DNA of 64,000 nt from Elusimicrobiota bacterium (lineage in GTDB: Bacteria > Elusimicrobiota > Elusimicrobia > Elusimicrobiales > UBA9959): the NCBI GenBank assembly GCA_026388155.1, contig JAPLKI010000022.1, positions 248,001 through 312,000 of the forward strand. Direction: 5' to 3'. The notes under the pieces are model-generated. The model worked only from the letters and a program-made list of their open reading frames with translations, was not told the DNA's origin and ran no database searches. Within the stretch, counting starts at the first letter, position 1; each line of letters starts with the position of its first letter. The position numbers were made by a program, and so were the translations under genes. This document shows, in pieces, positions 15,260 through 48,654 of the stretch.

Positions 15260-16291
15260 ATGAAACTCACAAATAGTCTGATTTTGTTTTGCGGCGTTCT
15301 TGCCGGTTGTTTTTTCTGTTCCTGCGGATCCAAAAACGAGCCGGTTGTCTCCCAAAGCATGTTTTTAATGAGCGTGCCCGTCCAGATCAAGGTGTACAGT
15401 CCGGACGCGAACTCCGGTCGAGCTCTGGTGAGGGAAATTTTTAAAGAATGGGAAAGGATAGCCGCGGAATACAACTTTAACGAACCGTATAGTTCCACTT
15501 CGTTCGTGAATAAGAAGGCTTACGGGGAATGGGTAAAAGTAGACGGGGAGTTTTTGCGCCTGCTTGAGCTTTCGTTTGATTATGCAAAAATGACCGGCGG
15601 GGCTTTTGACATAACCTTTGCGCCCTTGTGGCCCATATGGAAAGAGGCCGCTTCTTCCCAAAAAATGCCTTCTAAAACAGATATTTCCGCCGCGCTTGAA
15701 AATATCGGTTCGCAATACGTGCAGGTCGATCCGGAACGCAAAATGGTGCGTTTCTCAAAGCCCGTGCAGATCAACATGGGGGGGATCCTCCGGGGCTACT
15801 GTCTGGAAAAAGCTTATGAAATAATAAAGAGAAGCGGCGGCGGCGCGCCGGTTGAGGTCAAACTGGGCGGTTATATGCTGACCAGCGGCGCGCGCGCCTG
15901 GCAATACCCGGTGCCCGACCCGTTCCATGAAACCAAAACGCTGGGGAAACTGGTTTTTGAGGAAGGCGTGGTGATGTCTTCGTCCGGGCGGGATCATTTT
16001 GTGCAAATTGAGGGCAAACTCTACTCCCACATTCTGGACCTGAAAACAGGCTATCCCATAGAGAATTTCTCGAACCTCATCGTTTATTACCCTTCGCTTG
16101 AAGGCGGAAATTACATACCTTCCGCGGTGCTGGCGGTAATGGGCAAAGAAAAGGCTTTCGGTCTGCTTTCGAAAATAAAGGGAACGGCCGCCGTCTGGAT
16201 CGACGGCTCGGGGAAAGTTTCCGTTTTTTCAAATTCCGGGAGCAAGGCGCGGTGGGAAAAAAACAAAGGCTTTTTTAGTCTGGCGTCATGA
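15260..16291 (+). CDS. ApbE-like (FAD:protein FMN transferase family) lipoprotein with altered motifs
   Basis: 343 residues from ATG 15260, which has GGAG upstream; longer in-frame starts run through a structured leader. The lipobox VLAGC puts the lipidated Cys at residue 17. ApbE features: GGAFDITFAPLWP, INMGGILRGYCLEKA, and SHILDLKTGYPIENFSN. In the family, ApbE flavinylates Thr of partner proteins on the periplasmic side. Two usual residues differ: the KGY-type motif reads RGY, and the VxLGGD motif reads VKLGGY, losing its Asp. Catalysis may therefore be changed or lost. The stop overlaps the next start by four bases. Confidence 0.8.
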   Translation: MKLTNSLILFCGVLAGCFFCSCGSKNEPVVSQSMFLMSVPVQIKVYSPDANSGRALVREIFKEWERIAAEYNFNEPYSSTSFVNKKAYGEWVKVDGEFLRLLELSFDYAKMTGGAFDITFAPLWPIWKEAASSQKMPSKTDISAALENIGSQYVQVDPERKMVRFSKPVQINMGGILRGYCLEKAYEIIKRSGGGAPVEVKLGGYMLTSGARAWQYPVPDPFHETKTLGKLVFEEGVVMSSSGRDHFVQIEGKLYSHILDLKTGYPIENFSNLIVYYPSLEGGNYIPSAVLAVMGKEKAFGLLSKIKGTAAVWIDGSGKVSVFSNSGSKARWEKNKGFFSLAS

Positions 16292-17736
16292 ACGCTAAAC
16301 GCGCGGCCGCCGGCCTGGCGCTGATCGCGCTGTGCGCGGTTTTCCAGTTCTTCACCATCAGGGACGGCCATCCTTGGATGGACGACGCGTTCATGTACAT
16401 CATGCACGCCGATAATCTGGTTTCCGGCCGCCCCTACGCGGACACCTGCTACGTCTATAATCCCGAGAATCCCTATGTCGGCCCCCGGGCCTATCCTCCA
16501 GGCTATCCCGCCGTCCTGACCGTTCCTTTAAAACTTGGCGGCGGCCTGAAGGCCATGAAGGCAGGGAACGTGTTTTTCCTGTCGGGATTGCTTGCCTGCC
16601 TGCTCTTCTTTTTTACTTCCCCGGCGGGGGACTTCAGACTTCTGGGCCTGCTTGCGCTCTTCGGGCTGAATCCGGTCCTGTGGGACTATAAAGACCTTGT
16701 ATATTCGGACATCCTTTTTTGTTGCCTGCTTTACCTGTCCCTCCTGCTGCACCGTCTCTCCTATTCCAGGCCGGGGCTTGCCATGCATGCCCTGGCCGGC
16801 TTTTGCGCCTATCTCGCCTACGCCGTGCGGCCGCTGGGAGCCCTGCTGCCGGCGGCACTGGTCCTTGAGGACCTTCTGGCGGGAAAGGCGGACCGGCGGC
16901 GGCAGGCCGTACTCTGTGCCTGTTTTCTTGCGCCGGCGGCGGCGCAGGCCTTTTTCTTCGACCTGTCTTCTTACGCGGATCAGTTAGCCAGTCCAATAAG
17001 GTCCGCCCTTCTGCCTTCGGCCGTAAAGGTCCTGAAAGAATTTTTATTTTCTCTAAAGGGTTTCTGGGCTCTGGGTCCGGAAACCAGTCTGCCCGCCGCG
17101 CTGGCGGCCCTGGCTTTGGCGTTTTTGACTCTTTTCGGCTTCGCGGCTGGACTTGTGCGGCGGGTCCGTGAAAGTAAACTTGAGGCCATGGATTTTTTTG
17201 CCGCGTTCTATCTGCTCACCGTGGCGGGCTTTGGTATGTACGATGGGGTAAGATATATCTTCCCGCTGATGCCTTACCTCGTTTGGAAGGCATTTGAGGG
17301 GTTTGAAATATTTGGCGGGGCGGTCATGGGGCGGCGTGCGGCAGCGGCTTTTCTGGCGGCGGCTTTTGCGCTTTACGGATGGAGTTTCGCTATAAAGGCT
17401 GAATACGGCCCCATGAACGGCGGACCGTACGGGCGGCCGGCCCAGGAAATGTTCGGTTTTCTCAAGGGCGCTTCTTCCGCCGCCGACACGATCATCTTCG
17501 TAAAGCCCCGAAGCATGTGTTTCTTTACCGGCCGAAAAAGCTCAATCTATCCACCTTATGGGAATGACGCGCATTTCACGGCGTATTTCCGGGAGGCGGG
17601 AGCCTCCTACCTTGTGGTGAGCCGTGTTTTCGGGCAGGATGCACTTTACCTTTATGGTTTCGCGGAGCGAAACAGGGCTTCGTTGGAAAAAGTCTATGAT
17701 AACCCTGATTTCAAGGTTTTCCGGCTGAGAAAATAA
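16288..17736 (+). CDS. GT-C-type membrane glycosyltransferase (GT39/ArnT-like)
   Basis: 482-residue polytopic membrane protein. After the first helix comes GHPWMDDAFMYIMHADNLVSG, which carries the acidic first-loop motif (DD) of PMT/ArnT/GT39 transferases, and a periplasmic AYPPGYPAVLTVPLKL. About ten hydrophobic helices follow; the C-terminal part (TIIFVKPRSMCFFTGRKSS) is a periplasmic domain. Such enzymes move sugar from a polyprenyl-phosphate carrier to lipid or protein on the outer face. Acceptor unknown. ATGA overlap with the ApbE-like gene indicates coupling. Confidence 0.8.
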   Translation: MNAKRAAAGLALIALCAVFQFFTIRDGHPWMDDAFMYIMHADNLVSGRPYADTCYVYNPENPYVGPRAYPPGYPAVLTVPLKLGGGLKAMKAGNVFFLSGLLACLLFFFTSPAGDFRLLGLLALFGLNPVLWDYKDLVYSDILFCCLLYLSLLLHRLSYSRPGLAMHALAGFCAYLAYAVRPLGALLPAALVLEDLLAGKADRRRQAVLCACFLAPAAAQAFFFDLSSYADQLASPIRSALLPSAVKVLKEFLFSLKGFWALGPETSLPAALAALALAFLTLFGFAAGLVRRVRESKLEAMDFFAAFYLLTVAGFGMYDGVRYIFPLMPYLVWKAFEGFEIFGGAVMGRRAAAAFLAAAFALYGWSFAIKAEYGPMNGGPYGRPAQEMFGFLKGASSAADTIIFVKPRSMCFFTGRKSSIYPPYGNDAHFTAYFREAGASYLVVSRVFGQDALYLYGFAERNRASLEKVYDNPDFKVFRLRK

Positions 17737-17742
17737 GGTTAA

Positions 17743-17925
17743 CCCGAATCCTGCAATTGAAGTGGTTTCCGAATAGTGAAATCGGGTGAATAAAAAAATG
17801 CGGGATTCCCCGCAGCAGCGGGTCGGGAATTTTCAGCGCTATACGCGAAAATTCCCGAGGGCGTATCCGTCGCGAAGCGACCCCTGAGCACTGCGAAGGG
17901 GAATTCTTTAACCGAAGAATTCGGG
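17743..17925. repeat. Multi-hairpin dispersed repeat, copy 1
   Basis: 183-bp element bounded by CCCGAAT (17743-17749) and ATTCGGG (17919-17925), filling the gap between two convergent genes and ending at the stop codon of the minus-strand one. Internal stems: CCCGC/GCGGG (17809-17822), CGGGAATTTTC/GAAAATTCCCG (17824-17857), GTCGC/GCGAC (17869-17881), CCCCT/AGGGG (17881-17901) and GAATTCTT/AAGAATTC (17901-17922). A second copy is at 30882. The sequence could work as a bidirectional terminator, a structured RNA or a MITE-like element. Confidence 0.75.
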
Positions 17926-18414
17926 CTAGGGAATCTCTTCAAACTCGCCCTTATTCTTGTTTTTGCGAACATTGTGCCAGTTGAAATACCTGCCGTTCAT
18001 GGCGATATAAACGCCCGGGGGGAGCGTTTGCGCGAAAGAGAGCGCTGAGCCTAAATTGAACATTCCGTCGGAAGAACCGAACTTGTAGGGAACCATGGCG
18101 CCGGTGAGGACGACGGTCTTGTCCTTGATGCCTGGCCCAAGGACCTTTGCGGTTTGGGGCATAGTATCGGTGCCGTGGGTTATTACTATGCGTTTTTCCC
18201 GGGAGGCAAGACACTCTTTCAGTATTCTTTTTCTGTCGGCGGCCGTCATGAAAAGGCTGTCTATCATCATGAGCGTTTTTACTTTCACCGGCACTCGCGC
18301 GCGGCCGAGTTTCAGCATTTCGTAAAGATGCGTCCGGCGAAAGAAAAGTTCGCCGTTGAGTTCGTTGTATTCTTTGTCAAAAGTCCCGCCGGTGATAAGT
18401 AATTTAATGGTCAT
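17926..18414 (-). CDS. Single-domain asparaginase-like protein
   Basis: 162 residues, equal to only the N-terminal catalytic domain of L-asparaginases (about 330 residues). The first catalytic Thr motif LLITGGTFDKEYN and the second, THGTDTMPQTA, are both present, followed by KTVVLTGAMVPYKFGSSDGMFNLGSAL. The usual C-terminal dimerising domain is absent and the gene stops cleanly, so this is a recognisable short form rather than an obvious truncation. Substrate is uncertain: Asn, another amide, or none. No signal peptide; cytoplasmic. Confidence 0.85.
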   Translation of the reverse strand: MTIKLLITGGTFDKEYNELNGELFFRRTHLYEMLKLGRARVPVKVKTLMMIDSLFMTAADRKRILKECLASREKRIVITHGTDTMPQTAKVLGPGIKDKTVVLTGAMVPYKFGSSDGMFNLGSALSFAQTLPPGVYIAMNGRYFNWHNVRKNKNKGEFEEIP

Positions 18415-18433
18415 AATTGGACGAACAGAGGAT

Positions 18434-18490
18434 AGCGGATAGGGGCGAGAGATTAGTGATAAGGAATTCCTTCCCCAGCCGCTATCCGCT
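18434..18490. repeat. Reiterated-word inverted repeat (GCGGATA type)
   Basis: AGCGGATAG (18434-18442) is complementary to CTATCCGCT (18482-18490). The loop contains the palindrome AAGGAATTCCTT (18461-18472). It lies between two minus-strand genes, like the other word repeats of the window. Confidence 0.55.
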
Positions 18491-18502
18491 TTACGCTAAC
18501 CC

Positions 18503-19930
18503 CTATTTTCTCCCGTCTTTCAGGAACGCCAGATAACCTTTATAGGCCATGTAAATATCCAGCTTTCCCGCAAGCTCCATGGGCGCGTGCATGGACAGTA
18601 ATCCCACGCCGCAGTCAACCACCTGCATACCGTAGCGGGCCATCAGCCAGGCTATGGTGCCGCCGCCGCCCTGGTCAACCTTTCCCAGTTCGCCGGTCTG
18701 CCAGATCACTCTGGCCTTCGCGAAAATACGCCGAATCTCGGCCAAAAACTCGGCGTTGGCGTCGGAAGAGCCGGACTTGCCGCGCGCGCCGGTATATTTT
18801 GTCAGGCAAAGCCCGTGATTCATAATTGCCGTGTTTTTCTTTTCCGAAACCGCCGGGAACAGCGGGTCAAAAAGGGAGTTTACATCGGCGGAAAGCATCC
18901 ACGAACGCTCAAGCGCGCGTTTCAGGGAAAGCTCACTGTAAGTATCGGAGGTAAGATTTAAAAGCTCCGCGGCGGTGTTCTCGAAAAAATTCGAGGCCAT
19001 GCCGGTTGCGCCCACAGAACCTATTTCCTCCTTGTCGCAAAGCAGCACGCATGAGGTGTATTCCGGCGCGCCTTTAAGGTCAATCAGGGCTTTCAGGCCC
19101 GCGTATGCGCAAACGCGGTCGTCCTGGCCGTAGCCGAGGACCATGGAACGGTCAAGGCCCGCCTCGCGGGGTCTGGCCGCCGGCACCAGTTCAAGCTCCG
19201 CGGAAAGGAAATCCTCTTCCGTAATGCCGTATTTTTCGTTCAGCAGCCTGAGCGCGTTGCTTTTTATCTTTTCTTTCAGCCCCCTGCCCTCAGCCGGAAT
19301 TGAGCCGACTATGGCGTCGAGGCACTCGCCATCTATGCCTTCAGCCAGCGTTTTTTTCATCTGGTCCTGCGCCAGATGCGGCAAAAGATCGGTTATGCAT
19401 AACACGGGCTCGGAGGGGTCCTCTCCCACGCTCACTTTTATTTTTTTGCCGTCCGGCTTTATAAACACGCCGTGAAGCGCCAGCGGTATGGTAACCCACT
19501 GGTATTTTTTTATGCCGCCGTAATAGTGGGTGTCTAAAAACGCCATATCGCCGCTTTCGTAGAGCGGGTTCTGCTTTATGTCTATGCGGGGGGAATCGGT
19601 ATGGGCGCCCACAATGTGCATGCCCGCCTCAAGCGGTTTTTTTCCTATAATAACGGCCATCAGCGTTTTGCCGGAACAGGATTTGTACACCCTGTCGCCC
19701 GCCGTAAGCCGTATATTGTCTTTTTCAAATTTGCGCAGGTCCTTGAAACCGGCTGTTTCAAGCAGGGTAACAGCCTCGTCGTGGGCGTCCCTTTCCGTTT
19801 TCGCCCTGGCGATAAATTCAAGGTAAAGACGATTGTACTCCTCCAGGGTTTTCAGCTCCGCTTTAGGCAGTTTCTCGTAGCCGTTTTTGTTTGAATAGGC
19901 CAGCTCGGATTTTTTGGAATTTTTTTTCAT
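18503..19930 (-). CDS. M18-family zinc aminopeptidase
   Basis: 475 residues. Cytoplasmic metallopeptidase of the aspartyl-aminopeptidase family. Metal-site blocks: GMHIVGAHTDSPRIDIKQNP (first His/Asp), CVLLCDKEEIGSVGATGM (the Glu pair), MLSADVNSLFDP, and a late CGVGLLSMHAPMELAGKLD with the last His. ATG 19930 is chosen because GGAGAAC lies seven bases upstream; an in-frame TTG at 19948 would include that ribosome-binding site. Releases N-terminal residues from peptides. The length fits the longer M18 branch. Confidence 0.92.
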   Translation of the reverse strand: MKKNSKKSELAYSNKNGYEKLPKAELKTLEEYNRLYLEFIARAKTERDAHDEAVTLLETAGFKDLRKFEKDNIRLTAGDRVYKSCSGKTLMAVIIGKKPLEAGMHIVGAHTDSPRIDIKQNPLYESGDMAFLDTHYYGGIKKYQWVTIPLALHGVFIKPDGKKIKVSVGEDPSEPVLCITDLLPHLAQDQMKKTLAEGIDGECLDAIVGSIPAEGRGLKEKIKSNALRLLNEKYGITEEDFLSAELELVPAARPREAGLDRSMVLGYGQDDRVCAYAGLKALIDLKGAPEYTSCVLLCDKEEIGSVGATGMASNFFENTAAELLNLTSDTYSELSLKRALERSWMLSADVNSLFDPLFPAVSEKKNTAIMNHGLCLTKYTGARGKSGSSDANAEFLAEIRRIFAKARVIWQTGELGKVDQGGGGTIAWLMARYGMQVVDCGVGLLSMHAPMELAGKLDIYMAYKGYLAFLKDGRK

Positions 19931-19954
19931 TTTGTTCTCCTTCTTCAACGGGCG

Positions 19955-20052
19955 GCTAGTAGGCGTGTAGGCTAGTACGCCAGTATGCCAGTATGCTTAC
20001 AACCCGATATTTCTGAGTGCTTACCCGCCTACAAGCATGCCAGCCTACCAGC
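19955..20052. repeat. Reiterated-word inverted repeat between divergent genes
   Basis: Words such as GTAGGC and GCCAGTAT recur at 8-nt spacing. GCTAGTAGGC (19955-19964) pairs with GCCTACCAGC (20043-20052) at 9 of 10 positions, and further imperfect pairing lies inside. It occupies most of the gap between the M18 and MFS genes, so it could overlap both promoters. Confidence 0.55.
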
Positions 20053-20091
20053 AAAATTGAACCAACATAATTTTATGATATTATAGTCCTG

Positions 20092-21306
20092 ATGCAAAAC
20101 GCTAAATATTCGCGCCGGGTGCTGTTTCTGATATTTTTCATCAGCCTTTTCAATTATATAGACCGCCAGGCCCTTTACGCCGTTTTTCCGCTTATCAAAA
20201 AGGACCTGCTTCTCAGCGACGCAAAGCTTGGTTTTCTGGCGTCATCCTTCATGCTGGTTTATATGTGTTTCGCGCCGCTGGTGGGGTATTTCGGCGATAA
20301 ATACCGCAGGCCCCTCATTATCGGAGTAAGCGCTATTTTCTGGAGCGCGGCCACGGTGTGCACGGGCTTTATAAAAAGCTACGGCCAGCTGATCCTTACC
20401 CGCTCCGCCGTGGGCGTAGGCGAGGCGGGCTACGGAACCGTTTCTCCGTCTTATCTGGCTGAGTGGTTCCCGGTTGAGAAGCGCGCCCGTGTTATGTCTC
20501 TTTACGCTTTGGCTATTCCGGTGGGCAGCGCCGTAGGCTACCTGCTTGGCGGCTTATTGGGAGAGCGTTTTGGCTGGAGAACCGCTTTTTTTATGGTGGC
20601 TGCGCCGGGAATACTGCTTGGCATTATTGCCTTGTTTTTCCGTGAAACGGACGATAAAAAGGCCAGGGTAAGCGAAGTGTCTTTCTCGCACTATACGGAG
20701 CTTTTTAAGAACAGGACTTACCTGCTTATAACGCTTTCCCAGTCCATAAGCACTTTCTCGGTGGGCGGCATGGCCGCCTGGATGCCGTCTTTTTTCGTGC
20801 GCAGTTACGGGCTTGGCGTTGCCAGGGCCGGTTTTCTTTTCGGAGCTGTTACCGTGGCCGCGGGTATTGCCGGAAATTTCACCGGCGGCTGGGCGGCGGA
20901 CTGGCTTCGCGCGCGCAATAAGCGGTCTTATTTTATAGTAGGTTACCTGAGTTTTTTCCTCAGTATGCCTTTCGGCGTGGCGGCTGTGCTCACGGACAAC
21001 CTGCACACTTCGCTCACCATGATTTTTTTCGCCGAGTTCTTTATTTTTATGAATTCAGGGCCTTATCACGCGGCTATTGTGGAAACCATCCCGGTCAGTA
21101 TGCGTTCCATGGCTTTCGCCCTTAACATATTCATAATTCACGCTATGGGCGACGCTCTCTCCCCGTATTTGCTGGGTATTTTTTCCGATCACTTCGGCCT
21201 GGCGCTGGCGATTTTTATGGCCGTGCTTTACCTGGCGATGGGCGGCGTAACTTCAATATTCGCCGGCTACTGTTATAAAAAAGATTTCCACCCGGAGATA
21301 GCCTGA
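20092..21306 (+). CDS. MFS transporter
   Basis: 404-residue, twelve-helix major facilitator. The first loop has YFGDKYRRP, the canonical MFS motif A shape (GxxxDxxGRR type), preceded by FISLFNYIDRQALYAVFPLIKKDL, typical of the Spinster/hexuronate-like branch (NYxDRxxL). Helix 4-5 region: LTRSAVGVGEAGYGTVSPSYLAEWF. Substrate cannot be read; sugar acids, lipids or other anions are known for relatives. The stop overlaps the next start by one base (TGATG at 21304-21308). Confidence 0.9.
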   Translation: MQNAKYSRRVLFLIFFISLFNYIDRQALYAVFPLIKKDLLLSDAKLGFLASSFMLVYMCFAPLVGYFGDKYRRPLIIGVSAIFWSAATVCTGFIKSYGQLILTRSAVGVGEAGYGTVSPSYLAEWFPVEKRARVMSLYALAIPVGSAVGYLLGGLLGERFGWRTAFFMVAAPGILLGIIALFFRETDDKKARVSEVSFSHYTELFKNRTYLLITLSQSISTFSVGGMAAWMPSFFVRSYGLGVARAGFLFGAVTVAAGIAGNFTGGWAADWLRARNKRSYFIVGYLSFFLSMPFGVAAVLTDNLHTSLTMIFFAEFFIFMNSGPYHAAIVETIPVSMRSMAFALNIFIIHAMGDALSPYLLGIFSDHFGLALAIFMAVLYLAMGGVTSIFAGYCYKKDFHPEIA

Positions 21307-21953
21307 TGAACCCTTTTGAGATCGTATTTGAGGAAAATGACCTTATAGTGGCCAATAAATCCTCGGGCCTGCTGACAATGCCGGGCCGCGGCCCTGCCGC
21401 CAAAGAGCGAAATCTTCTGGCCTTGCTGACCCGGGCGCTTAAATGCCCCGTGTTCGTTGTTCACCGGCTGGATAAAGACGCCAGCGGCCTTATATTGTTC
21501 GCCCGCAGCGCCGAGGCACACCGCTACTATTCAGGGCTTTTTGAGACCAGGGACATTACCAAGAAATATCTGGCCGCCGTGAACGGGCTTATAACGGAGA
21601 AAAAAGGGGAAATTGACAAGCCGCTCGTTCAGGGAGGATCGGGCCGCGTGTCAGTGGCTTTCGACGGGAAGACCTCCATAACCCGCTACGAGACGCTTGA
21701 ACACTATAAAAATTCCACGCTGCTTGAAGTTTCCATTTTAACCGGGCGCCGCCATCAGATAAGAGTGCACCTGTATTCCATAGGCCACCCCATTGTCGGA
21801 GACAGGGTTTACGGCGATCAGGAGAAACAAAGACAATGGCCGCGCCTGATGCTGCACGCCTATGAATTGAAGTTCAAAGACAGGAACGGCAAGAAACTGT
21901 CGTTCCGGGCCGACCCGCCGAAAGATTTTATGAGCGTGCTGCCGTTTTTGTAA
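21306..21953 (+). CDS. RluA-family pseudouridine synthase
   Basis: 215 residues with the family catalytic motif HRLDKDASGLILFARS, whose Asp starts uridine isomerisation, and the later GRRHQIRVHLYSIGHPIVGDRVYG block. No S4 domain is present at the N-terminus. Target (23S rRNA or tRNA) is not decidable from sequence. Translationally coupled to the MFS gene, with no obvious functional link. Confidence 0.93.
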   Translation: MNPFEIVFEENDLIVANKSSGLLTMPGRGPAAKERNLLALLTRALKCPVFVVHRLDKDASGLILFARSAEAHRYYSGLFETRDITKKYLAAVNGLITEKKGEIDKPLVQGGSGRVSVAFDGKTSITRYETLEHYKNSTLLEVSILTGRRHQIRVHLYSIGHPIVGDRVYGDQEKQRQWPRLMLHAYELKFKDRNGKKLSFRADPPKDFMSVLPFL

Positions 21954-22307
21954 AAGGAGCGCCGTCCGCTAACTCTGAAGTGCTGAGACCTTGAATTAAC
22001 TCAATTTGAAAAGGCAAATGCTTCGTTGCCTGACTTGTGCGCTGGGACACCCTCGTAAGAGGTAACGGCAGGCCTGTGAGTTCGCGGGTCCTGCCGGGGG
22101 ATGGGTTCCAAAAACCAGGGTCGGGACACACCGTGCCGCCCTTCCCTTCCTCGGCCTCGCCGCTTATGCAAGTCTCGGCCTCCGGAGGATTTTTCCACCC
22201 AACCCCCGTCACCCGCTCCATTGAGATACCTGCCGCGGTTAATAAACTGGTGCGGTTTGACGCACTTATCAGGAGTAAAGACTCTCAAGCTGGACAAGCC
22301 CTGACCG
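21954..22307. other. Convergent intergenic region without a recognised gene
   Basis: 354 bp between RluA-like (+) and DUF4185-like (-). Overlapping open frames exist on both strands, but none has a ribosome-binding site or family resemblance. A small hairpin GGCAA/TTGCC (about 22012-22030) and several C/G-rich blocks are visible. A small RNA is possible; nothing is claimed. Confidence 0.4.
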
Positions 22308-23390
22308 CTATTTAACGGGTTTACTGTATTTCACCAGTATCGGCTGATAGATGGAAGGATCAATGTAGATGATGCGGACGGTTTCTTTCGAGTGAAATAT
22401 TTCCTTGGCGGAATAATAGAAAATATCTTTTTTGGGTTCGGGTTTGTAAACGCTTTTTACGGACGGTTTACGCGCGAGCGCATTAAAAGTCCCGAATTCA
22501 ACCAGTCGTATGTCCTGGGTCCTGCCGCTCATATAGACTATTCTGAAAAGCTCCACCCCTTCATCATATACCAGCGACGCCTCGCCTGAAACATCGTCAA
22601 AAAAAGCCCCTTTTTCTTTTTTTTGCCAGCGGCCTTTACGGGACAGGAACTCGTAAGCTGAAAAGTCCTCTATTCGCGCCGGTTCCACTCTGGCGGCGCA
22701 GAGCGCGTTCAGGCTGCCATCCGCTTTTTTTGCGATCCTTCCCAGGATGTAAACATAGCCGCCTTTTTTTACCACGCTGTCGCCCAATAAAATATCTTTC
22801 GCGTAAAATTTGCCGACCCTTTCAAAATTGAATTCGAGAATGTCGGCTTTTTCAGGGGTTTTTGCTTTTGCCAGCCCCGTGCCTTTAAATTTAAAGCCGG
22901 CGGCGTTTTCTTTAGCAATCTCCACATCCATGTAAAACACGTACACCCCGCTGTCCGTCTGTATGCCGCTGTCGGCCCACAGGCGGTTTATGAAAGGGTT
23001 TTCGTTTTTATTATATTTGATGAATTCAGAGACGGTTGAGCTTTCAGTGTAAAATTTAAAGCGAAGTTCTTTGTAATTTGTTTCCGCCGGAACAGCTGAA
23101 AGCGCCAGGGTATTGCAGGGCATGGCTTCCGTGTCCGCGGCGCCGGCAAAATTCAGGGTGGCGGTGGTAACCACCGGCCCTTTCCAGGCGCCAAGCATGG
23201 TGTCGCCGAATGTCCAGAGATATTTTTTCTCTCCGTCCTTGAAAATAACCGGGATGGGGGTAACCCCATCCTGTCCAAGCACGAAATCAAGGCGGCTTGG
23301 CGCAAAAATTCCCTCGTTGACAGTTTCGCCGAAAACGGCGCCCGTTGCCATGGAGCAGAACAAGAAAACCGGCAGATATATATTTTGCAT
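22308..23390 (-). CDS. Exported DUF4185-like protein
   Basis: 360 residues with a signal peptide (IYLPVFLFCSMATGAVFG). The block KKYLWTFGDTMLGAWKGP at about residues 54-71 is the characteristic FGDT motif of DUF4185/five-bladed propeller proteins related to glycosidases. Later beta-rich segments (DSGVYVFYMDVEI, GGYVYILGRIAKK) fit propeller blades. Substrate unknown; most likely carbohydrate-related and periplasmic or secreted. It starts 23 bases after the end of the M1-M28 peptidase gene, so the two are probably one transcript. Confidence 0.65.
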   Translation of the reverse strand: MQNIYLPVFLFCSMATGAVFGETVNEGIFAPSRLDFVLGQDGVTPIPVIFKDGEKKYLWTFGDTMLGAWKGPVVTTATLNFAGAADTEAMPCNTLALSAVPAETNYKELRFKFYTESSTVSEFIKYNKNENPFINRLWADSGIQTDSGVYVFYMDVEIAKENAAGFKFKGTGLAKAKTPEKADILEFNFERVGKFYAKDILLGDSVVKKGGYVYILGRIAKKADGSLNALCAARVEPARIEDFSAYEFLSRKGRWQKKEKGAFFDDVSGEASLVYDEGVELFRIVYMSGRTQDIRLVEFGTFNALARKPSVKSVYKPEPKKDIFYYSAKEIFHSKETVRIIYIDPSIYQPILVKYSKPVK

Positions 23391-23413
23391 TTTAGGTTTT
23401 CTTTGTGACTTTA

Positions 23414-26400
23414 TTACCTGCCCGCTATTTCCATCTCAATTGTCTTTTGCTCGTTATCGGACAGATAAGTCATTTGTATCGTGTCGCCGGGAGAGAACTT
23501 TTTCAGCGCGTCGGAATATGCCTTAAGTCCGTCCACGGCCAGCCCGTTTATTTTTATTATCACATCCAGGGGCTTTACCGCCGTTTTTGAAAGCGGCGAG
23601 CCGGGCGTTATGTCCTGCGCTCTCACGCCGCTTCCCTGGAAGGTGAAGTCCGGCACCAGGCCGGTGTATACTTTGCGGATGCCGGGGGAAGCCGGGCGGC
23701 TGGACGGCTGGACGGCCGGGCTGCCGGAAAAAGAGGGACGGGTGATAAAATCACTATCCGAGGCCAGATAATCTATTATTTCTTTAGCGAATTCAGCCTG
23801 CTTTACAACGCCGGCCACGTCGATCTTATAGGCGGTGTCCGTGAATTTGTGATAATCCGTCTTGGGCCCGCTGAAAAACTGCACGGCCGGCACGCCGCCT
23901 TCAATGAAACTGATCTGGTCGCTGGAATCCAGGTCCTCCTTTACCAGGTCGTAATCGCAGCCTGTGACGAAGCCGGCCCCCCTGAATATATGCACCCACT
24001 TATCGGAAGAGCCTGAGCTTAGCAGCAGTACTTTCCCTCCTTCCAGGCGGCCCACGGTGTCAAAATTCAAGTCTGCGTTGATCTTCGCCGCCGTCGCCGG
24101 CGACAAGCCGGCCACGAAATTCCTGGAGCCCAGCCGCCCTTCCTCCTCCCCTGAGAAAGCGGCGAAGATTATAGTGCGGCGCGCCGGATGCACGGCATAA
24201 TAACGGGCCAGTTCAAGGAGCAGCGCCACGCCGGAAGCGTTGTCGTCCGCGCCGGGGAAAACTTCCGCGCCTTTCGCGGCCAGATGGTCGTAATGCGCGG
24301 AGAGCACGACGTAATCGTCCTTGGCGGTCGTGCCTTCCACCTTGCCTATTACGTTATTGAGCCGAAGCTCCCGCCCCGCGTTATCAGCCGTAAACGGAAC
24401 GGAAAAGCCGGGCGGATAGAATGGCGCAAGGCCGGCCTCTTTAAAAGCGGCCTTGACCAAGGTTTCGGCTTTCCCCAGGCCGGGCGAGCCCGGACCTCTG
24501 CCGCCGGGCAGGGAGGCAAGCGTTTTGACGTCGGAATATATCCTTTGCCCTGAAAAAACGGAGGGCAGGACCGCCAGCGGGGCGCGCGCCGGGTAGCGCC
24601 GCCCGGCCGGGGCCTCCGCTCCGGGCAAGTTTATGCCGAGCGGGGAGGAGAAAGTCTTCCAGATCCCGGTGGCGGCGGAGTTCATGTCCCTGTCAAAGAC
24701 CAGCCAGGAATATTTGCCGTAATGCGGCAGTTTAGCCGCCAGCGCCGACAGGCTTGCCGTGGAGGCGGAAATTATCAGCCCGCCGGAAAAACCCGCGAAC
24801 ACAAAAGTATTCCCGGCGCGCGGGAATTTTTGGTTCTCCATAATTATGGAAGAAGAACTGAAACGGGCGCCGTATATTTCAAGCCCTCTCTCAAAATCAG
24901 GGGTGAACCTGTTTTCAGAGCCCAGCAGCCAGTAAGCTCCGGGAGGGGGGGCCGCGGCAGCTGAATCGCTGCTTATAACGGGGAGGTTTTCCTTGTCTTT
25001 TGTCCAGGCGGACGCGAATTCATTCCAAGCCGCGTAGCCGGCGCCCGCAGGCAGTATGAGAGCGGGTTTTTTAGCGCCCAGCATGCGTGAAAGCGCAGGC
25101 GGAGTTTCAAGCGGGTCGAGCTTGCGGAAAATATCGAATTCCGGGTCTATTTCAAGTCGCAGTATTTTCAGCGGCGCGGAATACTGGAAGGTTTCTTCTT
25201 TGGCGGTCATGGTAAGAAGCTTTGGTCTTGGCTGCGGCATATTTTCAAGATAAATAAACGCGGGCACCTCAAGCGCGTAAGCGGGGCCTTCCTGAACCTG
25301 CGCCAAAGTGAATTCGAGGGTATATTCGCCGTCCATTCCCCGGCCCGTTCTTATGTTCTTTAAGGCAAGTTCAGGGGCGCCGGCGCGCTCCGTCCACTGG
25401 GTAAAGAAACGGTCCAGCCGGCCGCTTCCGGTTCGCTTTTCAAAAGCTTTTTTAAGGTCGTCAAACCCCGCGAGCCTGAAGCGGTTATCGGCGTAAAAAT
25501 CCCTGAGTCCTGTTTTGAATCTGGCATCGCCCAGAACGTTCCTGAGCATATGATAAAGCATAAGGGCCTTGCCGTAGCCGACGGCCTCCGAGACCGAGGA
25601 ATCGCGCGAACGGAATTCCGTAAGCGGGAAATCTTTGCCTTCTAAAACATAGTCCGCGTATTTCTGCAGGGTGGTTTCCCGGTATTCTTTGCCTTTCCCG
25701 CGGTTTTCGGCTATCAGGTAGTCGGCCATGTAGGCGGTAAGACCCTCGCACCAATTGCCTTTTTCATAGTCCACAAAAACGCCGTTGCCCCACCAGTTAT
25801 GCAGTATTTCATGCGGATATGAAGAATTGATTATAAAAGGCAGGCGTATAACTTTGGGCCCCAGCAGGGTGAATGACGGAAGCCCGTAGCCTGTTTCCCA
25901 GAAGTTTTCCACCAAAGCGAATTTGGAATAAGGATAGGGGCCGATGAGCCCGGAATAAAAAACCGCGTATTTTTCAGCGGCGTCAAGGTAGTTTTCTGCA
26001 AGTTCCCGGTCGGGAGAGCGCAGGAAAGCGTAATATTCAAGCGGTACCCGCCCTGTTGACTCAACGGGCAAGGAGTGTGAAGTATTGGCCGGGTTTGAGG
26101 CCTCGTTTTCCGGGACAAAAAAGCGGGACGGGCCGCCTCGGCGCTTATACTCCGAGTATTTGCCGCAGACAAGCGTGATTTCGTCCTGCGGGTTTTTTTC
26201 TTCCCAAATCGTTCTAATCGTGGTTTTATCAGCCGAATGTTTAACGCGCGCGCCGCCCGCCACGCAATCAAAGGGCGCCGGCAGCCTGGTTTCAAGCCTG
26301 AAAGCGACCAGGGAGCTTTCAAAGTGCGGGTACCAGCCGGAAGAACCGGAAAGATAGCAGCCTTCTCCGGAAATTACTCCGGGGGTTTCGGAAAAACTGC

Positions 26401-26788
26401 GCGCATATTCTTCCGCCCGCTCACCTAGCGGGTGATCTATAATGCCGCCGTATTCAAGCGTAAAGGTTTTTGACGGCTTTGCCAGCGTTACGCGGTAGGC
26501 GTCAAAAAACAGGCTGTTGGAGGAATAATTAATGCCGTATTTTTTTTGAGCGGTTTCCCGGGCTATGAGTTCCAGCGCGGCGTCTTTGGCTTTTACCGAC
26601 GGATTAAGGCCCTGGTGCAGGGAGAAAATAAATTCCCGGCCGGCATCGGCCAAAGTCAGCGTGTCTTTGACGGAGAAGGAATGGTTTTGCGGATCAATAT
26701 TTATTTCAAGAGCATGGTTAACTGTCCCGGCGTTCAAACCTGCCGCAAAGGCTAAAATGATTACAAGAGGAAAGAAAATATTTTTCAT
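23414..26788 (-). CDS. Exported M1-M28-PDZ triple peptidase fusion
   Basis: 1124 residues with an N-terminal signal peptide (ending about AAGLNAG). The first half is an M1-family aminopeptidase: YPHEILHNWWGNGV holds HEXXH near residue 326 and NWCEGLTAYMAD the second Glu. A middle beta-rich and alpha/beta stretch follows. Residues about 790-1010 form an M28 peptidase: VVLSAHYDHLA, FPGADDNASGVALLLELA, and FAAFSGEEEGRLGSRNF supply the two-zinc ligands. The last roughly 95 residues form a PDZ domain (GSGVRAQDITPGSPLSKTAVKPLDVIIKINGLAV). Two exopeptidase-type catalytic units plus a PDZ in one exported chain suggest periplasmic or surface peptide degradation. The frame is intact throughout. Confidence 0.9.
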   Translation of the reverse strand: MKNIFFPLVIILAFAAGLNAGTVNHALEINIDPQNHSFSVKDTLTLADAGREFIFSLHQGLNPSVKAKDAALELIARETAQKKYGINYSSNSLFFDAYRVTLAKPSKTFTLEYGGIIDHPLGERAEEYARSFSETPGVISGEGCYLSGSSGWYPHFESSLVAFRLETRLPAPFDCVAGGARVKHSADKTTIRTIWEEKNPQDEITLVCGKYSEYKRRGGPSRFFVPENEASNPANTSHSLPVESTGRVPLEYYAFLRSPDRELAENYLDAAEKYAVFYSGLIGPYPYSKFALVENFWETGYGLPSFTLLGPKVIRLPFIINSSYPHEILHNWWGNGVFVDYEKGNWCEGLTAYMADYLIAENRGKGKEYRETTLQKYADYVLEGKDFPLTEFRSRDSSVSEAVGYGKALMLYHMLRNVLGDARFKTGLRDFYADNRFRLAGFDDLKKAFEKRTGSGRLDRFFTQWTERAGAPELALKNIRTGRGMDGEYTLEFTLAQVQEGPAYALEVPAFIYLENMPQPRPKLLTMTAKEETFQYSAPLKILRLEIDPEFDIFRKLDPLETPPALSRMLGAKKPALILPAGAGYAAWNEFASAWTKDKENLPVISSDSAAAAPPPGAYWLLGSENRFTPDFERGLEIYGARFSSSSIIMENQKFPRAGNTFVFAGFSGGLIISASTASLSALAAKLPHYGKYSWLVFDRDMNSAATGIWKTFSSPLGINLPGAEAPAGRRYPARAPLAVLPSVFSGQRIYSDVKTLASLPGGRGPGSPGLGKAETLVKAAFKEAGLAPFYPPGFSVPFTADNAGRELRLNNVIGKVEGTTAKDDYVVLSAHYDHLAAKGAEVFPGADDNASGVALLLELARYYAVHPARRTIIFAAFSGEEEGRLGSRNFVAGLSPATAAKINADLNFDTVGRLEGGKVLLLSSGSSDKWVHIFRGAGFVTGCDYDLVKEDLDSSDQISFIEGGVPAVQFFSGPKTDYHKFTDTAYKIDVAGVVKQAEFAKEIIDYLASDSDFITRPSFSGSPAVQPSSRPASPGIRKVYTGLVPDFTFQGSGVRAQDITPGSPLSKTAVKPLDVIIKINGLAVDGLKAYSDALKKFSPGDTIQMTYLSDNEQKTIEMEIAGR

Positions 26789-26862
26789 TTTGCTGTCCGG
26801 AATTTTTAATTGATGGCTTTTAACTTATACAATATATTACAACTTTACCAGATGGAGGCCGC

Positions 26863-28176
26863 ATGAAAAAGAAAACCCCGGTAGCGCTTCTGATGGTCAT
26901 AGACGCGGTTGGACTTTCCACCGTCGAATATCTGCTGTCGCGTTATCCCGGAAAAGTAAAAATGCCCAATCTGTCAAAACTCGGCCTTGGCAATATTGTG
27001 CTGCCTCAATATAAAAAAAGATTCACGCCTCCGTTCGCCGCTAAAAGCTACGCCGCGCGCATAACGCAGGTTTCGGCCACGGCGGACAGCCTTGTGGGCC
27101 ATCGCGAGATGGTGGGCGTGATAGATAACCGCACTTACGACCTGTTCAACGGCGGGTTTTCAAAAAAGTATCTCTCCGAACTTGAAAGGCGCATAGGCAG
27201 AAAAACTTTTTACAATAAAATGGCCGGCGGTATGGAGGCCATAGAACTTAACGCGGCGGAGCACGAGCGCACGGGTAAACCTATAGTTTACTCGAGCAAG
27301 TGCGATCCCCTGATACAGCTGGCGATGAACGAAGCTGTCATACCGGTCGGAGAACAGCACAAAATAGCCGATATCGCTTTCGCGCTCGCCATGGAGATGA
27401 AAATACCCATAACCCGCGCCATAGCCCGTTCCTATATAAAGAACGCGCAGGGCGAGATCATCCGCACCTCCAACCGCCACGATGCCGTTCTGCCCATCGG
27501 CCAAAAAACCCTGGTGGACATACTGTACGACAACTCCGTCTGGACGGTGGCGGTGGGCAAGACCAGCGATCTGGTGAATACCGCCTATCACGCAAAGGTG
27601 AAGCTTAATAAGGAAATCTTCCTTGACCCAGCGCTTGGCCTGCGCTTCGTTCATCCGAAGAAAAAAGACACAAACCCCTTCACGGTGCAGGGCACCATAA
27701 ATGCGCTCGAGGGCGCCAGGGCTATTTACCGGCCCAAAGGCACTTTTGTCTTTACCAACCTGGTGGACACCGACAGCGTTTACGGACACACCCGCGATGT
27801 GGAGGGGGCGGTAAATTCTATTGAGGAAATAGACCGCCTGCTGCCGCTTATCGAAAGCCGGCTTGATAAGGGCGATTTAATGATAATAACGGCCGACCAT
27901 GGCATGGAACACCGGGCGGATTACGGCTACCATTCAAACGAGCCTCTGCCCGTGATAGTCAAGCGCATCGACTGCGGCGGGGACTTGGGCGGCATTCAGA
28001 CCGGCCTGTATCCGGGGCTGACGGATATAGGCTCCATGATAGCCCAGATGTTTGGCGTGGAAAAGCAGTACGCCGCCTGTGTAAAAACTAAGATTCAGAC
28101 AGCAGCTCCATATACACCTCTTTCTCCCTTTGCCAAAAGGAAGAGCGGGGTGGCGGGCAAATCCCGCACTGTCTGA
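26863..28176 (+). CDS. DeoB-like phosphopentomutase-family metalloenzyme
   Basis: 437 residues of the alkaline phosphatase superfamily. Metal-site features: LLMVIDAVGLSTVE at the N-terminus, ADSLVGHREMVG, FTNLVDTDSVYGHTRDVEGAVNSIEEID (matching DeoB's D-x3-GH-R) and MIITADHGMEH. In classical DeoB the second motif reads KDTxTGHWE; here Ser and Val stand in place of the two Thr, and Arg in place of Trp. It could still convert ribose 1-phosphate to ribose 5-phosphate, or act on a related substrate. A GGAGG site precedes the ATG. It complements the nucleoside importer at 3.8-8.4 kb. Confidence 0.75.
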   Translation: MKKKTPVALLMVIDAVGLSTVEYLLSRYPGKVKMPNLSKLGLGNIVLPQYKKRFTPPFAAKSYAARITQVSATADSLVGHREMVGVIDNRTYDLFNGGFSKKYLSELERRIGRKTFYNKMAGGMEAIELNAAEHERTGKPIVYSSKCDPLIQLAMNEAVIPVGEQHKIADIAFALAMEMKIPITRAIARSYIKNAQGEIIRTSNRHDAVLPIGQKTLVDILYDNSVWTVAVGKTSDLVNTAYHAKVKLNKEIFLDPALGLRFVHPKKKDTNPFTVQGTINALEGARAIYRPKGTFVFTNLVDTDSVYGHTRDVEGAVNSIEEIDRLLPLIESRLDKGDLMIITADHGMEHRADYGYHSNEPLPVIVKRIDCGGDLGGIQTGLYPGLTDIGSMIAQMFGVEKQYAACVKTKIQTAAPYTPLSPFAKRKSGVAGKSRTV

Positions 28177-28182
28177 ACATAA

Positions 28183-29877
28183 ATGAAAAAACACTTCCCG
28201 TTTATCGCCGCCGCGCTGGCTGTCGCTTTTAATATTTACGGCGCGGTTTCCTTTATCAGGACTTCAAGCCTGACATATGACGAAGGGGCGCATCTAGTGG
28301 TGGGTTACAGCTACTTAAAGACGGGGAAATACCATTTACGTATCTTCAACCACCCTCCCTTTTCCGACATGCTTGCCTCGGCGCCGCTTTTGTTCTTTCC
28401 CGGCCTTAAAACATTTGAAAACGGCGCTGCCTACCGCGGAAATGATTTTTACAATTACGCCGCCGAATTCCTCTATCATAATACCGCCCCGGCGGAAAAA
28501 ATATTGAACACCGCGAGATATTTTGCGTATATCGTCTGGACTTCCCTGCTTTTTCTGTTTGTTTTTCTGTTCGCGCGCGAGATGGCGGACCGTGATGCCG
28601 CCTGGTGGGCCCTTGCCGCGGCTGCCCTTACGCCCGCTTTTATTTCCAATAACACGCTGGTAACTACCGACGCTCCGTCCAGCGTCCTTTATCTTGGCGC
28701 GTTCCTGGGCGCGTATCTGACCGCTAAAAACCTGGACGCCGGCGACTACGGAAGGGCCTTTTGGCGCGCCGCGCTCTCCGGAACCCTGACGGGGCTTGCC
28801 ATGGTCTCCAAGTTCAATATGGCGCTTCTGCCGTTATTCATCGCCGGAACTTTTGCCTCCGGCATGCTGGTCAGTCCCGGCCGTGGTTTCAGTAAAAAGA
28901 TCCTTTATCTCCTGCTTGTTTACGGCGCGGCCGCGCTGGCCGTCCTGCTTGCCGTCTACCGGGTTACGGATGTGGGCCTTTATTTCCGGGGAGTGCTGGA
29001 AACTTCACAGGGCCTTGCCGCAGGAAGAGTTTCGTTTATGAACGGGTTGTATGAGAAGCAGGGTGTGTGGTGGTACTTTCCTTACGTTTTTCTGGTTAAA
29101 ACGCCGCTCGGGCATATTGCGCTGCTGGCCGCCGGCGTTTTTTATTCCTTCGTGAAAAGTGAAAAGAAACATTTATGGATCTATATCCCCGCCACGCTTT
29201 ACCTGGAATTCGCGCTGACTTCAAAGTTCCAGGTCGCTTTCCGGCATCTTCTGCCCGCGCTGCCTTTTGTAGCCGTCATCGAGGGATATGCCATGTCGCG
29301 CGCGTTTAAAAGCGGTTTTGGTGCTGTCGCCGGTTCCGCGGCGCTTTTTTGTGTTTTTCTTTCGGTCGCGCCGGTCCATCCGTATTACCTGAGTTATTTT
29401 AACGAACTGGCGGGCGGGCCTGCCGGCGGTTATAGGCATCTTGTGGAGGCCAATATAGACTGGGGGCAGGATTTAAAAAATCTTGCCATCGAGCTTCGGA
29501 AACGCGGTAATCCGCCGGTCTATCTCTGCTATTTCGGGACCGCGCTTCCGGAATATTACGGCATAAAATATGTGCCGTTCAGTATTTTCTCGGAGTTGCC
29601 CTTGAAAGGGACGGGGGAAGCCCCATGCTCGTTCAAGCAACATCTCCTCGCCGTGTCGGTTACCAATTTGCAAAGCGTGTATTACAGGGATAAGCGGCTT
29701 TTGGAATGGCTCCGGGAAAAGGCCCCTGTGTTCAAGGCGGGGTATTCCATTTTTGTTTATGACCTGACCGGCGACGAGGAAGGTATGCGGAAAATTGCGG
29801 AAATGCTCCATCTCACGGGCCGCGTGGAAGATGCCGCCTGTCTTAAAAATAAAATTGAGGGAGGCGCGGCTAAATGA
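28183..29877 (+). CDS. GT-C-type membrane glycosyltransferase (PMT/GT39-like)
   Basis: 564-residue polytopic protein. First-loop motif SSLTYDEGAHLVVGYSYLKTG carries the acidic pair typical of dolichyl/undecaprenyl-phosphate-sugar transferases, followed by FNHPPFSDMLASAPL. About ten helices follow, and a C-terminal periplasmic part includes VEANIDWGQDLKNLAIELRKRG, a block seen in many bacterial PMT-like proteins. Acceptor unknown. It begins 6 bases after the DeoB-like gene and overlaps the WD40 lipoprotein gene by four bases. Confidence 0.82.
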   Translation: MKKHFPFIAAALAVAFNIYGAVSFIRTSSLTYDEGAHLVVGYSYLKTGKYHLRIFNHPPFSDMLASAPLLFFPGLKTFENGAAYRGNDFYNYAAEFLYHNTAPAEKILNTARYFAYIVWTSLLFLFVFLFAREMADRDAAWWALAAAALTPAFISNNTLVTTDAPSSVLYLGAFLGAYLTAKNLDAGDYGRAFWRAALSGTLTGLAMVSKFNMALLPLFIAGTFASGMLVSPGRGFSKKILYLLLVYGAAALAVLLAVYRVTDVGLYFRGVLETSQGLAAGRVSFMNGLYEKQGVWWYFPYVFLVKTPLGHIALLAAGVFYSFVKSEKKHLWIYIPATLYLEFALTSKFQVAFRHLLPALPFVAVIEGYAMSRAFKSGFGAVAGSAALFCVFLSVAPVHPYYLSYFNELAGGPAGGYRHLVEANIDWGQDLKNLAIELRKRGNPPVYLCYFGTALPEYYGIKYVPFSIFSELPLKGTGEAPCSFKQHLLAVSVTNLQSVYYRDKRLLEWLREKAPVFKAGYSIFVYDLTGDEEGMRKIAEMLHLTGRVEDAACLKNKIEGGAAK

Positions 29878-30881
29878 AAGTCGTGATCTTACTGGGAGCC
29901 GCGCTTTGTTTTTGCGGCTGTGACAGCGGACTGCCGCGGGACGCCGGCTCTCTCCGCGGCTGCGAGTCGTTCCGGCTCCCCGCCTGCAGGACCTGGGGCG
30001 CTTCCGGTGAAGCGGTTAAAAACATCGCTATTTCTCCGGATGGGAAACTGGTCGCGTCAGCCGGCGCGGCGGGAGGGGTCGTTTTAAGAGAGTTTGGGAG
30101 CGGCGCGGTTCTCTCCGATTTCCGGGAAAACTCCATGCCGGTTTATGCGGTTTCTTTTTCAGCGGATTCAAAAATACTGGCTTGGGGCGGGCTGGACGGA
30201 AAGCTGCGGGCCCGCTTCCTGTCAGCCGGGCAGTCGGACAGAAAAAAAACCGAAAAGCGGATAGCTAAAGACGCCGAATGGAGCGTGCTCGGAATCAAGT
30301 TCTCGCCTGATTTAAAATATCTGGCCGCCACGGGAGCGGATGGGCTTATCAGGCTATGGGAGCCGGCCTTCCCCGCGCCCGCCATGATTTTACACGGCCA
30401 CCGCGGGGCGGTGAACGCTCTGGATTTTTCGCCGGACGCTAAATTCCTCGTTTCCGCCGGCTGCGACGGCGTGGTAGCCGTCTGGGATATGAAAACCGGC
30501 AATCTCGTGAAAATGGTAAGGGATGATCCCGCCGACTGCCTTATGACCGTCGCTTTTTCCCGCGACGGCAGGTATCTGGCTTATGCCGGATATGGAAAAA
30601 CGATAAGGGTGCGGGATAACTTCTCGGGTGAGCGCAAGTGCGTTTTTACCGGACATGCTTCCGGCGTCACTTCGCTCGATTTCTCAGCCGATTCCTCGCG
30701 GCTGGTTTCTTCAGACCTTGACGGAGAGATACGGGTATGGGACGCGGAAAAATGCTCCCGGGAAAGAAAAATAAAGGTGTCCGATTCCGCCGTTTACTCC
30801 GTCAAATTCACGCCCGACGGAAAATATCTGGTCTGCGCTTCAGGGAATGCCGGGGTGCGGATATTTCAGCCGCTGAAATAA
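29874..30881 (+). CDS. WD40-repeat lipoprotein-like protein
   Basis: 335 residues. A short hydrophobic leader with Cys-rich end (LLGAALCFCGCDSG) suggests a lipoprotein. Then come about seven WD40-type blades recognisable by SPDGKLVASAG, SADSKILAWGGLDG, SPDLKYLAATGADGLIRLW, SPDAKFLVSAGCDGVVAVWD, SRDGRYLAYAG, SADSSRLVSSDLDGEIRVWD and TPDGKYLVCASG. That is enough for one closed propeller, probably a protein-interaction platform in the periplasm. Coupled by ATGA overlap to the upstream membrane glycosyltransferase gene. Confidence 0.85.
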   Translation: MKVVILLGAALCFCGCDSGLPRDAGSLRGCESFRLPACRTWGASGEAVKNIAISPDGKLVASAGAAGGVVLREFGSGAVLSDFRENSMPVYAVSFSADSKILAWGGLDGKLRARFLSAGQSDRKKTEKRIAKDAEWSVLGIKFSPDLKYLAATGADGLIRLWEPAFPAPAMILHGHRGAVNALDFSPDAKFLVSAGCDGVVAVWDMKTGNLVKMVRDDPADCLMTVAFSRDGRYLAYAGYGKTIRVRDNFSGERKCVFTGHASGVTSLDFSADSSRLVSSDLDGEIRVWDAEKCSRERKIKVSDSAVYSVKFTPDGKYLVCASGNAGVRIFQPLK

Positions 30882-31105
30882 CCCGAATCCTGCAGTTTAG
30901 ATAGTTTTCATTAAAAAACACAGGGAACAGGAATATTGCCGGATTCCCCGCAGCAGCGGGTTGCGAATTTTCAGCACTATGTGCGAAAATTTTCAAGGGC
31001 GTATCCGTCGCGAAGCGACCCCTGAGCACTGCGGAGGGGAATTCTTCAGTCGCGGACAGTCCGCCTAAGGCGGAACAGGCCAGTGCCACAACTGAAGAAT
31101 TCAGA
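30882..31105. repeat. Multi-hairpin dispersed repeat, copy 2
   Basis: Starts one base after the WD40 stop with CCCGAAT (30882-30888). It repeats the middle of copy 1 almost base for base, including CCCGC/GCGGG and GTCGC/GCGAC stems. Its last stem is longer: GAATTCTTCAGT (31039-31050) pairs with ACTGAAGAATTC (31091-31102), and the loop holds an extra hairpin TCCGCC/GGCGGA (31060-31074). The inner part of the second stem reads GCAC/GTGC instead of GCG/CGC, a compensating change. Both copies lie between convergent genes. Confidence 0.75.
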
Positions 31106-31119
31106 ATAAGGGCTTGTGA

Positions 31120-36318: not shown

Positions 36319-36388
36319 CGTTCCTCCCGTTTCCACTATTCTATAAAATCCCCCGCAACTCTTGAAATCCCCCTCCTAATCTGCTATC

Positions 36389-36429
36389 TTAACTTTACAT
36401 TTCAGACAATGACAAAAGTGTAAAGTTAA
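36389..36429 (-). repeat. REP-like palindrome, copy 1 (upstream of transposase)
   Basis: 41 bp with perfect 11-bp arms TTAACTTTACA (36389-36399) and TGTAAAGTTAA (36419-36429) around an asymmetric core AGACAATGACAAAA. Its core is inverted relative to the copies at 37365 and 48604, from which it differs at two positions. Confidence 0.9.
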
Positions 36430-36438
36430 TGGGGAAAT

Positions 36439-37405: not shown

Positions 37406-37447
37406 GGGAATGGGAATGTAGCTTTGGTTACAGTGACTAAAGGTTTA

Positions 37448-48579: not shown

Positions 48580-48603
48580 TTGCTGCACCGACGGTAAAAA
48601 AGC

Positions 48604-48644: not shown

Positions 48645-48654
48645 GCGGATTAAC

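Follow-up and report, generated by a model that had tools for sequence, protein, structure and literature searches.

What is the multi-hairpin repeat that lies twice between convergent genes on a contig of an Elusimicrobiota bacterium, and why do its stems still pair where the two copies differ in sequence? The contig (GenBank JAPLKI010000022.1, assembly GCA_026388155.1) was analysed over positions 248,001 to 312,000, a stretch of 64,000 nucleotides called the window below, in which a first, sequence-only reading had described a two-copy structured element, possibly a bidirectional terminator or a miniature inverted-repeat transposable element (MITE). We conclude, with a probability of about 0.85, that the repeat is a non-autonomous MITE of about 180 bp, which inserts at NTAN sites (mostly YTAR), duplicating 4 bp, and is most likely moved in trans by a transposase of the IS1380 family.

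A dispersed repeat of one Elusimicrobiota family

The description as a two-copy repeat was an underestimate: BLAST returned 29 matches to the element in the genome carrying the window (3.36 Mb in 25 contigs; hereafter the source genome), where the left-end motif had 34 exact and 14 one-mismatch sites, versus one match for a reversed-pattern control. The typical element is 178–183 bp long, dispersed, and carries no open reading frame (ORF) for a transposase. Matches at E ≤ 0.001 were obtained in 21 of 61 related genomes, split into 21 of the 37 genomes of the same family and none of the 24 from the other family of the order. Species genomes scanned for the pattern yielded 83 stretches, all labelled Elusimicrobia, Elusimicrobiota or Elusimicrobiales except for one metagenome-assembled genome labelled “bacterium”, and the viral contigs searched for the element gave no match. 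Within the genomes searched, the repeat is restricted to one Elusimicrobiota family.

Terminal repeats, target duplication and an empty site

The element is bounded by terminal inverted repeats (TIRs), CCYGAATCCTGCAG on the left and CCYGAANNNTNCAG on the right. An end pattern neutral with respect to the flanking sequence identified 131 elements with paired ends, 130 of which were kept, one without 12 bp of flank being dropped; the 130 still include a few chance pairings. The 4-bp flanks were identical in 75 of the 130 elements, as against a mean of 26.0 and a maximum of 38 in 1000 random re-pairings, for which all 131 elements were used. Left and right flanks agreed in 101–110 of the 130 elements at bases 1–4, but in 30–44 at bases 5–12, and this fall beyond position 4 sets the length of the duplication at 4 bp. 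Some loci came from a TA-requiring search, which favours TA at positions 2 and 3 but does not bear on whether positions 1 and 4 agree. The consensus YTAR was present in 104 of the 130 left flanks and 91 of the right flanks, with TTAA the commonest sequence, and the target may be written as NTAN, mainly YTAR (TTAA, TTAG, CTAA and CTAG). Non-palindromic flanks were checked separately because TTAA and CTAG are palindromic: 43 elements had a non-palindromic NTAN on the left and NTAN on the right, and these flanks were direct copies in 32 cases and inverted in one, so the repeat is a true duplication rather than part of the inverted repeat.

A screen of 120 elements for empty sites gave one clean case, with the junction read by eye and a poor MAFFT alignment. 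At locus L101 the element lies between GTAA and ATAA at the end of a coding stretch, and locus L136 has a single ATAA in the same place; the joined flanks of L101 match L136 at 78% over 884 bp. Beside the orthologous right-hand gene, neither window copy had a match in six of six relatives.

An IS1380-family transposase as the candidate partner

A search of 192 sequences listed 12 pairs of inward-facing TIRs placed 0.5–4.5 kb apart around an ORF, and the five inspected by eye contained no recognisable transposase ORF. Genome G023 contains an intact gene for an IS1380-family transposase (NF033539, 255.9 bits with a cut-off of 180; PF13701 and PF01609), the only intact gene of this kind seen. The ends of the IS1380-type insertion sequences (ISs) seen here share 16–18 nt with the right ends of the MITE. 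Both the 3′ end of the G023 transposase gene and the 5′ ends of like elements elsewhere in G023 have the sequence CCTGAAAACTTCAGTTG, which is the right end of many MITE copies, and the relatives of this gene in G010 and G021 end in CCTGAAAAATGCAGTT, another right-end type of the MITE. In the source genome, a remnant of the 5′ part of the transposase gene survives (72% over 32 residues), preceded by CCTGAAAACCTCGGTTGACCG and adjoining a MITE copy. Given these matching ends, an IS1380-family transposase is the most likely driver of the MITE, which it would mobilise in trans. The TIRs, the 4-bp target duplications, the empty site and the ends shared with an IS thus give strong support to the earlier suggestion of a MITE.

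Several observations weigh against this reading. No identical 4-bp repeat was present in 55 of the 130 paired elements, and the flanks of the first window copy (TTAA and CTAG) are no longer identical. Synteny in relatives does not extend to the left flanks of the window copies, so there is no clean empty site for either. Transposase matches were found in seven of the 61 genomes, three of them distant (25–39% identity), as compared with 21 for the MITE, so most hosts would hold orphan MITEs. None of the IS1380 copies recovered has both of its ends together with a target duplication of its own: the intact gene of G023 is missing its 5′ end, and contig ends truncate the others. Since the pattern that first located the G023 ends required TA, the TA beside them is not independent, and the IS flanks constitute weak evidence. 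No IS was seen to carry the left end of the MITE, TCCTGCAG.

Other mobile systems were weighed against this assignment. Duplications of YTAR are typical of the IS701 family, and an IS701 partner was first suspected from the 4-bp YTAR consensus of the target; it was ruled out by the lack of any DDE_5 match in the source genome and of any IS701 model match above the cut-off in 37 genomes (0/37). The transposase with matching ends also scores as IS1380 rather than IS701 (256 versus 21 bits), and we regard an IS701-family MITE as very improbable. An integron attC-like site, or a REP element moved by a single-strand transposase, would fit a hairpin-rich, dispersed repeat with some copies near stop codons, but the clear 4-bp direct duplication (75/130) and the TIRs, which such systems are not known to make, point elsewhere, and this explanation is scarcely credible.

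Where the transposase frame begins, IS1380 5′ regions from three genomes (L194, L018 and L213) have a hairpin, GCAYGGTTTYGT/ACRAAACCRTGC, that shows compensating changes and whose 3′ arm overlaps the probable start codon of the transposase.

Hairpin architecture and covariation

At either end of the MITE, the terminal repeat and its own inverted copy form a hairpin. Three more hairpins lie between the end hairpins, and the outermost bases can close the whole element. For the analysis of pairing, 79 of the 130 elements were 170–192 bp long and free of N, 64 remained after the removal of near-identical sequences, and 56 were aligned (alignment A1); the eight omitted were L008, L009, L014, L015, L056 and L203, which have replaced interiors, together with L127 and L166. 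In the structure that RNAalifold gave for A1, the outermost bases are paired with an internal stretch; a structure specified by hand was counted in its place. Pairing was observed in 92.1% of the 2735 stem cells, versus 28–49% when partners were slid by 1–3 columns, a comparison that favours the counted structure, which was drawn by hand from the same sequences. In the right hairpin, some rows of A1 are off by one column, an error that reduces its pair counts rather than inflating them.

Changes on both sides were found in 24 of the 49 pairs, compared with 15.1 in shuffles, and in 16 of 36 pairs with RNAalifold alone. A tree of the unpaired columns required at least 81 changes from one Watson-Crick pair to another at 15 pairs, including 11–13 independent changes at each of three pairs of the right hairpin. 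The left hairpin is nearly invariant (no two-sided change at any of its 10 pairs), and several loop and linker bases are more than 90% conserved. The compensating changes that the sequence-only reading had seen in two copies therefore extend across the family; the covariance model and the search of the genome and its relatives that it had suggested were carried out, and the covariation test was positive.

The covariance model (R1), built from the 56 copies, was searched against 99 selected loci, with overlapping and contig-end loci omitted. It recovered both window copies at exactly the coordinates first given for them (17743–17925 and 30882–31105), the second as a match to 31050 beyond which the repeat runs on past an insertion, and it found no further match of comparable score in the window. 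Both copies fold far more stably than shuffled sequences, the z-scores of copy 1 being −5.67 (RNA) and −5.77 (DNA) and that of copy 2 −5.36 (RNA), and none of 200 shuffles equalled either copy. Their features are as follows, in window coordinates.

17739–17742, no strand: left flank of copy 1, TTAA, a target-site duplication, now imperfect (from the sequence and family statistics)
17743–17925, plus strand: copy 1 of the MITE, 183 bp (model R1, 147.8 bits)
17743–17745, plus strand: closing stem of copy 1, 5′ side, pairing with 17923–17925
17746–17808, plus strand: left hairpin of copy 1, in which the TIR arm 17746–17755 pairs with its own inverted copy 17799–17808 (98.0% of cells paired)
17809–17822, plus strand: second hairpin of copy 1, CCCGC/GCGGG (98.6% of cells paired)
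17823–17858, plus strand: third hairpin of copy 1, with a strongly covarying outer stem (9/9 pairs change on both sides) and a nearly invariant inner stem of the GCGC type
17869–17881, plus strand: fourth hairpin of copy 1, GTCGC-GAA-GCGAC (82.5% of cells paired)
17882–17900, plus strand: fifth hairpin of copy 1, a short stem with an internal loop (boundaries approximate)
17901–17922, plus strand: right hairpin of copy 1, GAATTCTTT/GAAGAATTC, the right TIR and its inverted copy (96.8% of cells paired)
17926–17929, no strand: right flank of copy 1, CTAG, including the stop codon of the minus-strand asparaginase-like ORF
30878–30881, no strand: left target-site duplication of copy 2, ATAA, including the TAA stop of the WD40 ORF
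30882–31105, plus strand: copy 2 of the MITE, 224 bp including the insert (model R1, 120.8 bits to 31050; both ends found)
31050–31089, plus strand: insert in the right-hairpin loop of copy 2, matched by eye to a distinct dispersed hairpin repeat of which it is a diverged member (boundaries approximate)
31106–31109, no strand: right target-site duplication of copy 2, ATAA (from the sequence)

Gene ends and stop codons

The proximity of both window copies to stop codons was confirmed. Copy 1 begins 6 bp past the stop of ORF 16288–17736, and the CTAG on its right is the stop of the minus-strand asparaginase-like ORF 17926–18414; copy 2 lies immediately 3′ of the TAA stop of the WD40 ORF 29874–30881, with ATAA on both sides. 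A GT-C transferase had been placed upstream of both copies. This holds for copy 2 (28183–29877, PF13231), but was not confirmed for copy 1, the 482-residue upstream protein having no Pfam match at E 0.001.

Neighbouring genes were called across the family by a simple ORF rule, elements shorter than 60 bp or longer than 330 bp being dropped before the count, which also leaves out 16 “inside”, 15 “edge” and three “far” cases; the “inside” cases are unreliable because elements were masked with N. The 87 copies with both neighbours called comprised 26 between convergent genes (30%), 45 in tandem and 16 in divergent settings; the 266 spacers in the same loci comprised 56 convergent (21%), 159 tandem and 51 divergent. 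A stop codon lay within 4 bp of the copy at 13 of 55 left and eight of 42 right gene ends facing a copy. YTAR holds TAA or TAG on each strand, so a stop codon that receives an insertion is duplicated and the gene is spared. The link with stop codons follows in part from the YTAR target; one clean case was observed, and the same would presumably hold more generally. Target choice is a simple reason for the presence of repeats at stop codons without harm to genes.

RNA function or upkeep at the DNA level

A selected plus-strand RNA should tolerate G-U, but not A-C. Among 84 unique copies, from the best 85 rows, 40 G-U and 24 A-C cells were counted at the 42 well-paired positions (p = 0.06), and G-U accounted for 46 of 4064 cells (about 1%) across all 49 pairs. 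Comparison of 189 close copy pairs, which are not independent, gave 271 double changes, 66 single changes via G-U and 149 pair-breaking changes. The tRNA control (7 G-U versus 2 A-C, from seven usable tRNAs of eight) was too small. As G-U barely exceeds A-C, the covariation is no demonstration of RNA function, and maintenance of the palindromes at the DNA level fits too. Template switching can yield arm-homogenising double changes of this kind, according to a passage of PMC8794818.

The interior might be a functional structured RNA, or a gene-end element acting at the RNA level, that travels as a mobile element or was domesticated from one, with RNA-level selection keeping the stems. Two-sided change in 24 of 49 pairs, the Watson-Crick replacements (at least 81 over 15 pairs), the conserved loop and linker bases and the slight excess of G-U over A-C argue for such a role, but the strand test is weak, with G-U in about 1% of stem cells, the copies lie in all gene orientations and nested inserts interrupt several of them. 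Moreover, Rfam gave no match at the gathering threshold in the window, and at E values up to 10, its weak matches at three loci all lay outside the elements. We consider RNA-level selection unlikely to explain the stems. The bidirectional terminator at convergent gene ends envisaged by the sequence-only reading was unsupported, because copies occur in every gene orientation, and terminator-like signals were at chance level. Both window copies and 26 of the 87 copies overall do lie between convergent genes, but this proportion (30%) is only slightly above that of the spacers (21%). The minus strand of copy 1 has one terminator-like hairpin with a T-run, but such sites numbered one versus 0.7 and none versus 0.8 in shuffles, and an A-rich run in the matching place was present in 32 of the 56 copies and absent from 24. 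A terminator is accordingly improbable.

We lean slightly towards stem upkeep that is mostly due to DNA-level homogenisation of the arms by template switching, together with the retention of working ends, rather than to RNA function. The further proposal of a mobile palindrome family without RNA function, with RNA-grade covariation made at the DNA level through template switching or through selection on extruded or single-stranded hairpins during transposition, is held only tentatively; if true, the family would be a natural test bed for the trust placed in covariation alone as evidence of RNA. Strong covariation with little strand bias is a warning that covariation-based RNA-finding pipelines can pick up mobile palindromes.

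Nested and neighbouring repeats

In copy 2, the sequence-only reading had noted a hairpin gained in the loop of the last stem. The insert is present, but it resembles a separate dispersed hairpin repeat nested in the loop. This repeat, CAGTCGCGGACAGCGCCANAGGCCCGCGACAGGCCAGAGTCAC, is about 43 nt long, sometimes occurs in tandem and was seen at L241–L252 as well as at 31050–31089 of the window. Its 3′ motif, seen around CGACAGGCCAGAGTCAC, has 43 matches in the source genome (up to two mismatches) versus one for the control; the member in copy 2, assigned by eye, has diverged. For another dispersed hairpin repeat, GGCCGTCTGANGGCCATAGGC, 57 matches were found in the source genome (up to two mismatches, none for the control), none of them in the window; it occurs on many contigs (e.g. 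L039, L053 and L202), several times at contig ends and several times inside MITE copies.

Another MITE family in the source genome (L035, L036, L043, L044 and L198–L200) shares these ends, but its hairpin interior is longer, about 200–360 bp, and of different sequence. Minimal elements of about 32 bp, consisting of one terminal repeat and its inverted copy, were observed at L201 (G000:C18:106024-106061) and L206 (G000:C10:234451), with TTAA/TTAA or TTAG/CTAA as flanks; these may be the smallest mobile forms or forms of decay. Elsewhere in the window, positions 37534–63291 are occupied by long tandem arrays, with a larger period of about 1.4 kb and 42 listed copies of a 119-nt unit, which we take to be kelch-like repeats. 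Near-perfect inverted repeats of 42–49 nt beginning with TTAACTTTACATTTTTGTCATTGTC were found at 36388–36433, 37361–37406 and 48603–48651. Two of the three flank ORF 36439–37368, and they are possibly another palindromic element.

Comparison with known systems

In titles and passages of the literature on IS1380-linked MITEs and on miniature inverted repeats of Elusimicrobia, no account of this family was found, and the main text of a MITE review (PMC10969869) makes no mention of IS1380. The putative autonomous partner belongs to the IS1380 family (NF033539; Pfam DDE_Tnp_1_4), with a transposase above the cut-off, and a short target duplication is common to that family and the MITE. IS1247, of this family, is given a 5-bp duplication in a passage of PMC3281130, whereas that of the MITE is 4 bp, at YTAR, and the MITE shares terminal sequence only, not the IS interior. 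The YTAR target, dominated by TTAA, recalls the piggyBac superfamily of eukaryotes, in which TTAA is also the commonest target duplication; passages of PMC10813416 report the target variants CTAA, TTAG and GTAA and the use of IS1380 as an outgroup. The likeness rests on the target sequence, the host here being bacterial and the transposase of a different family.

BOX elements consist of modular hairpins. In pneumococcus, they are described in passages of PMC10969869 as intergenic repeats that cluster with others and insert into one another. They are comparable with the present family in these features, and the candidate mobiliser here is of the IS1380 type. The RUP of pneumococcus and the Correia elements (NEMIS) are, like the present family, small dispersed MITEs, and the ends of RUP also match an IS. 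According to passages of PMC2229807, RUP has IS630-Spn1 as its partner and TA as its target, and NEMIS transcripts form stem-loops. RUP thus combines TA with an IS630-type partner, whereas the present family has IS1380-type ends and a 4-bp YTAR duplication. IS-linked MITEs are an already known kind of element, to which this repeat adds a family tied to IS1380-type ends in a little-studied phylum.

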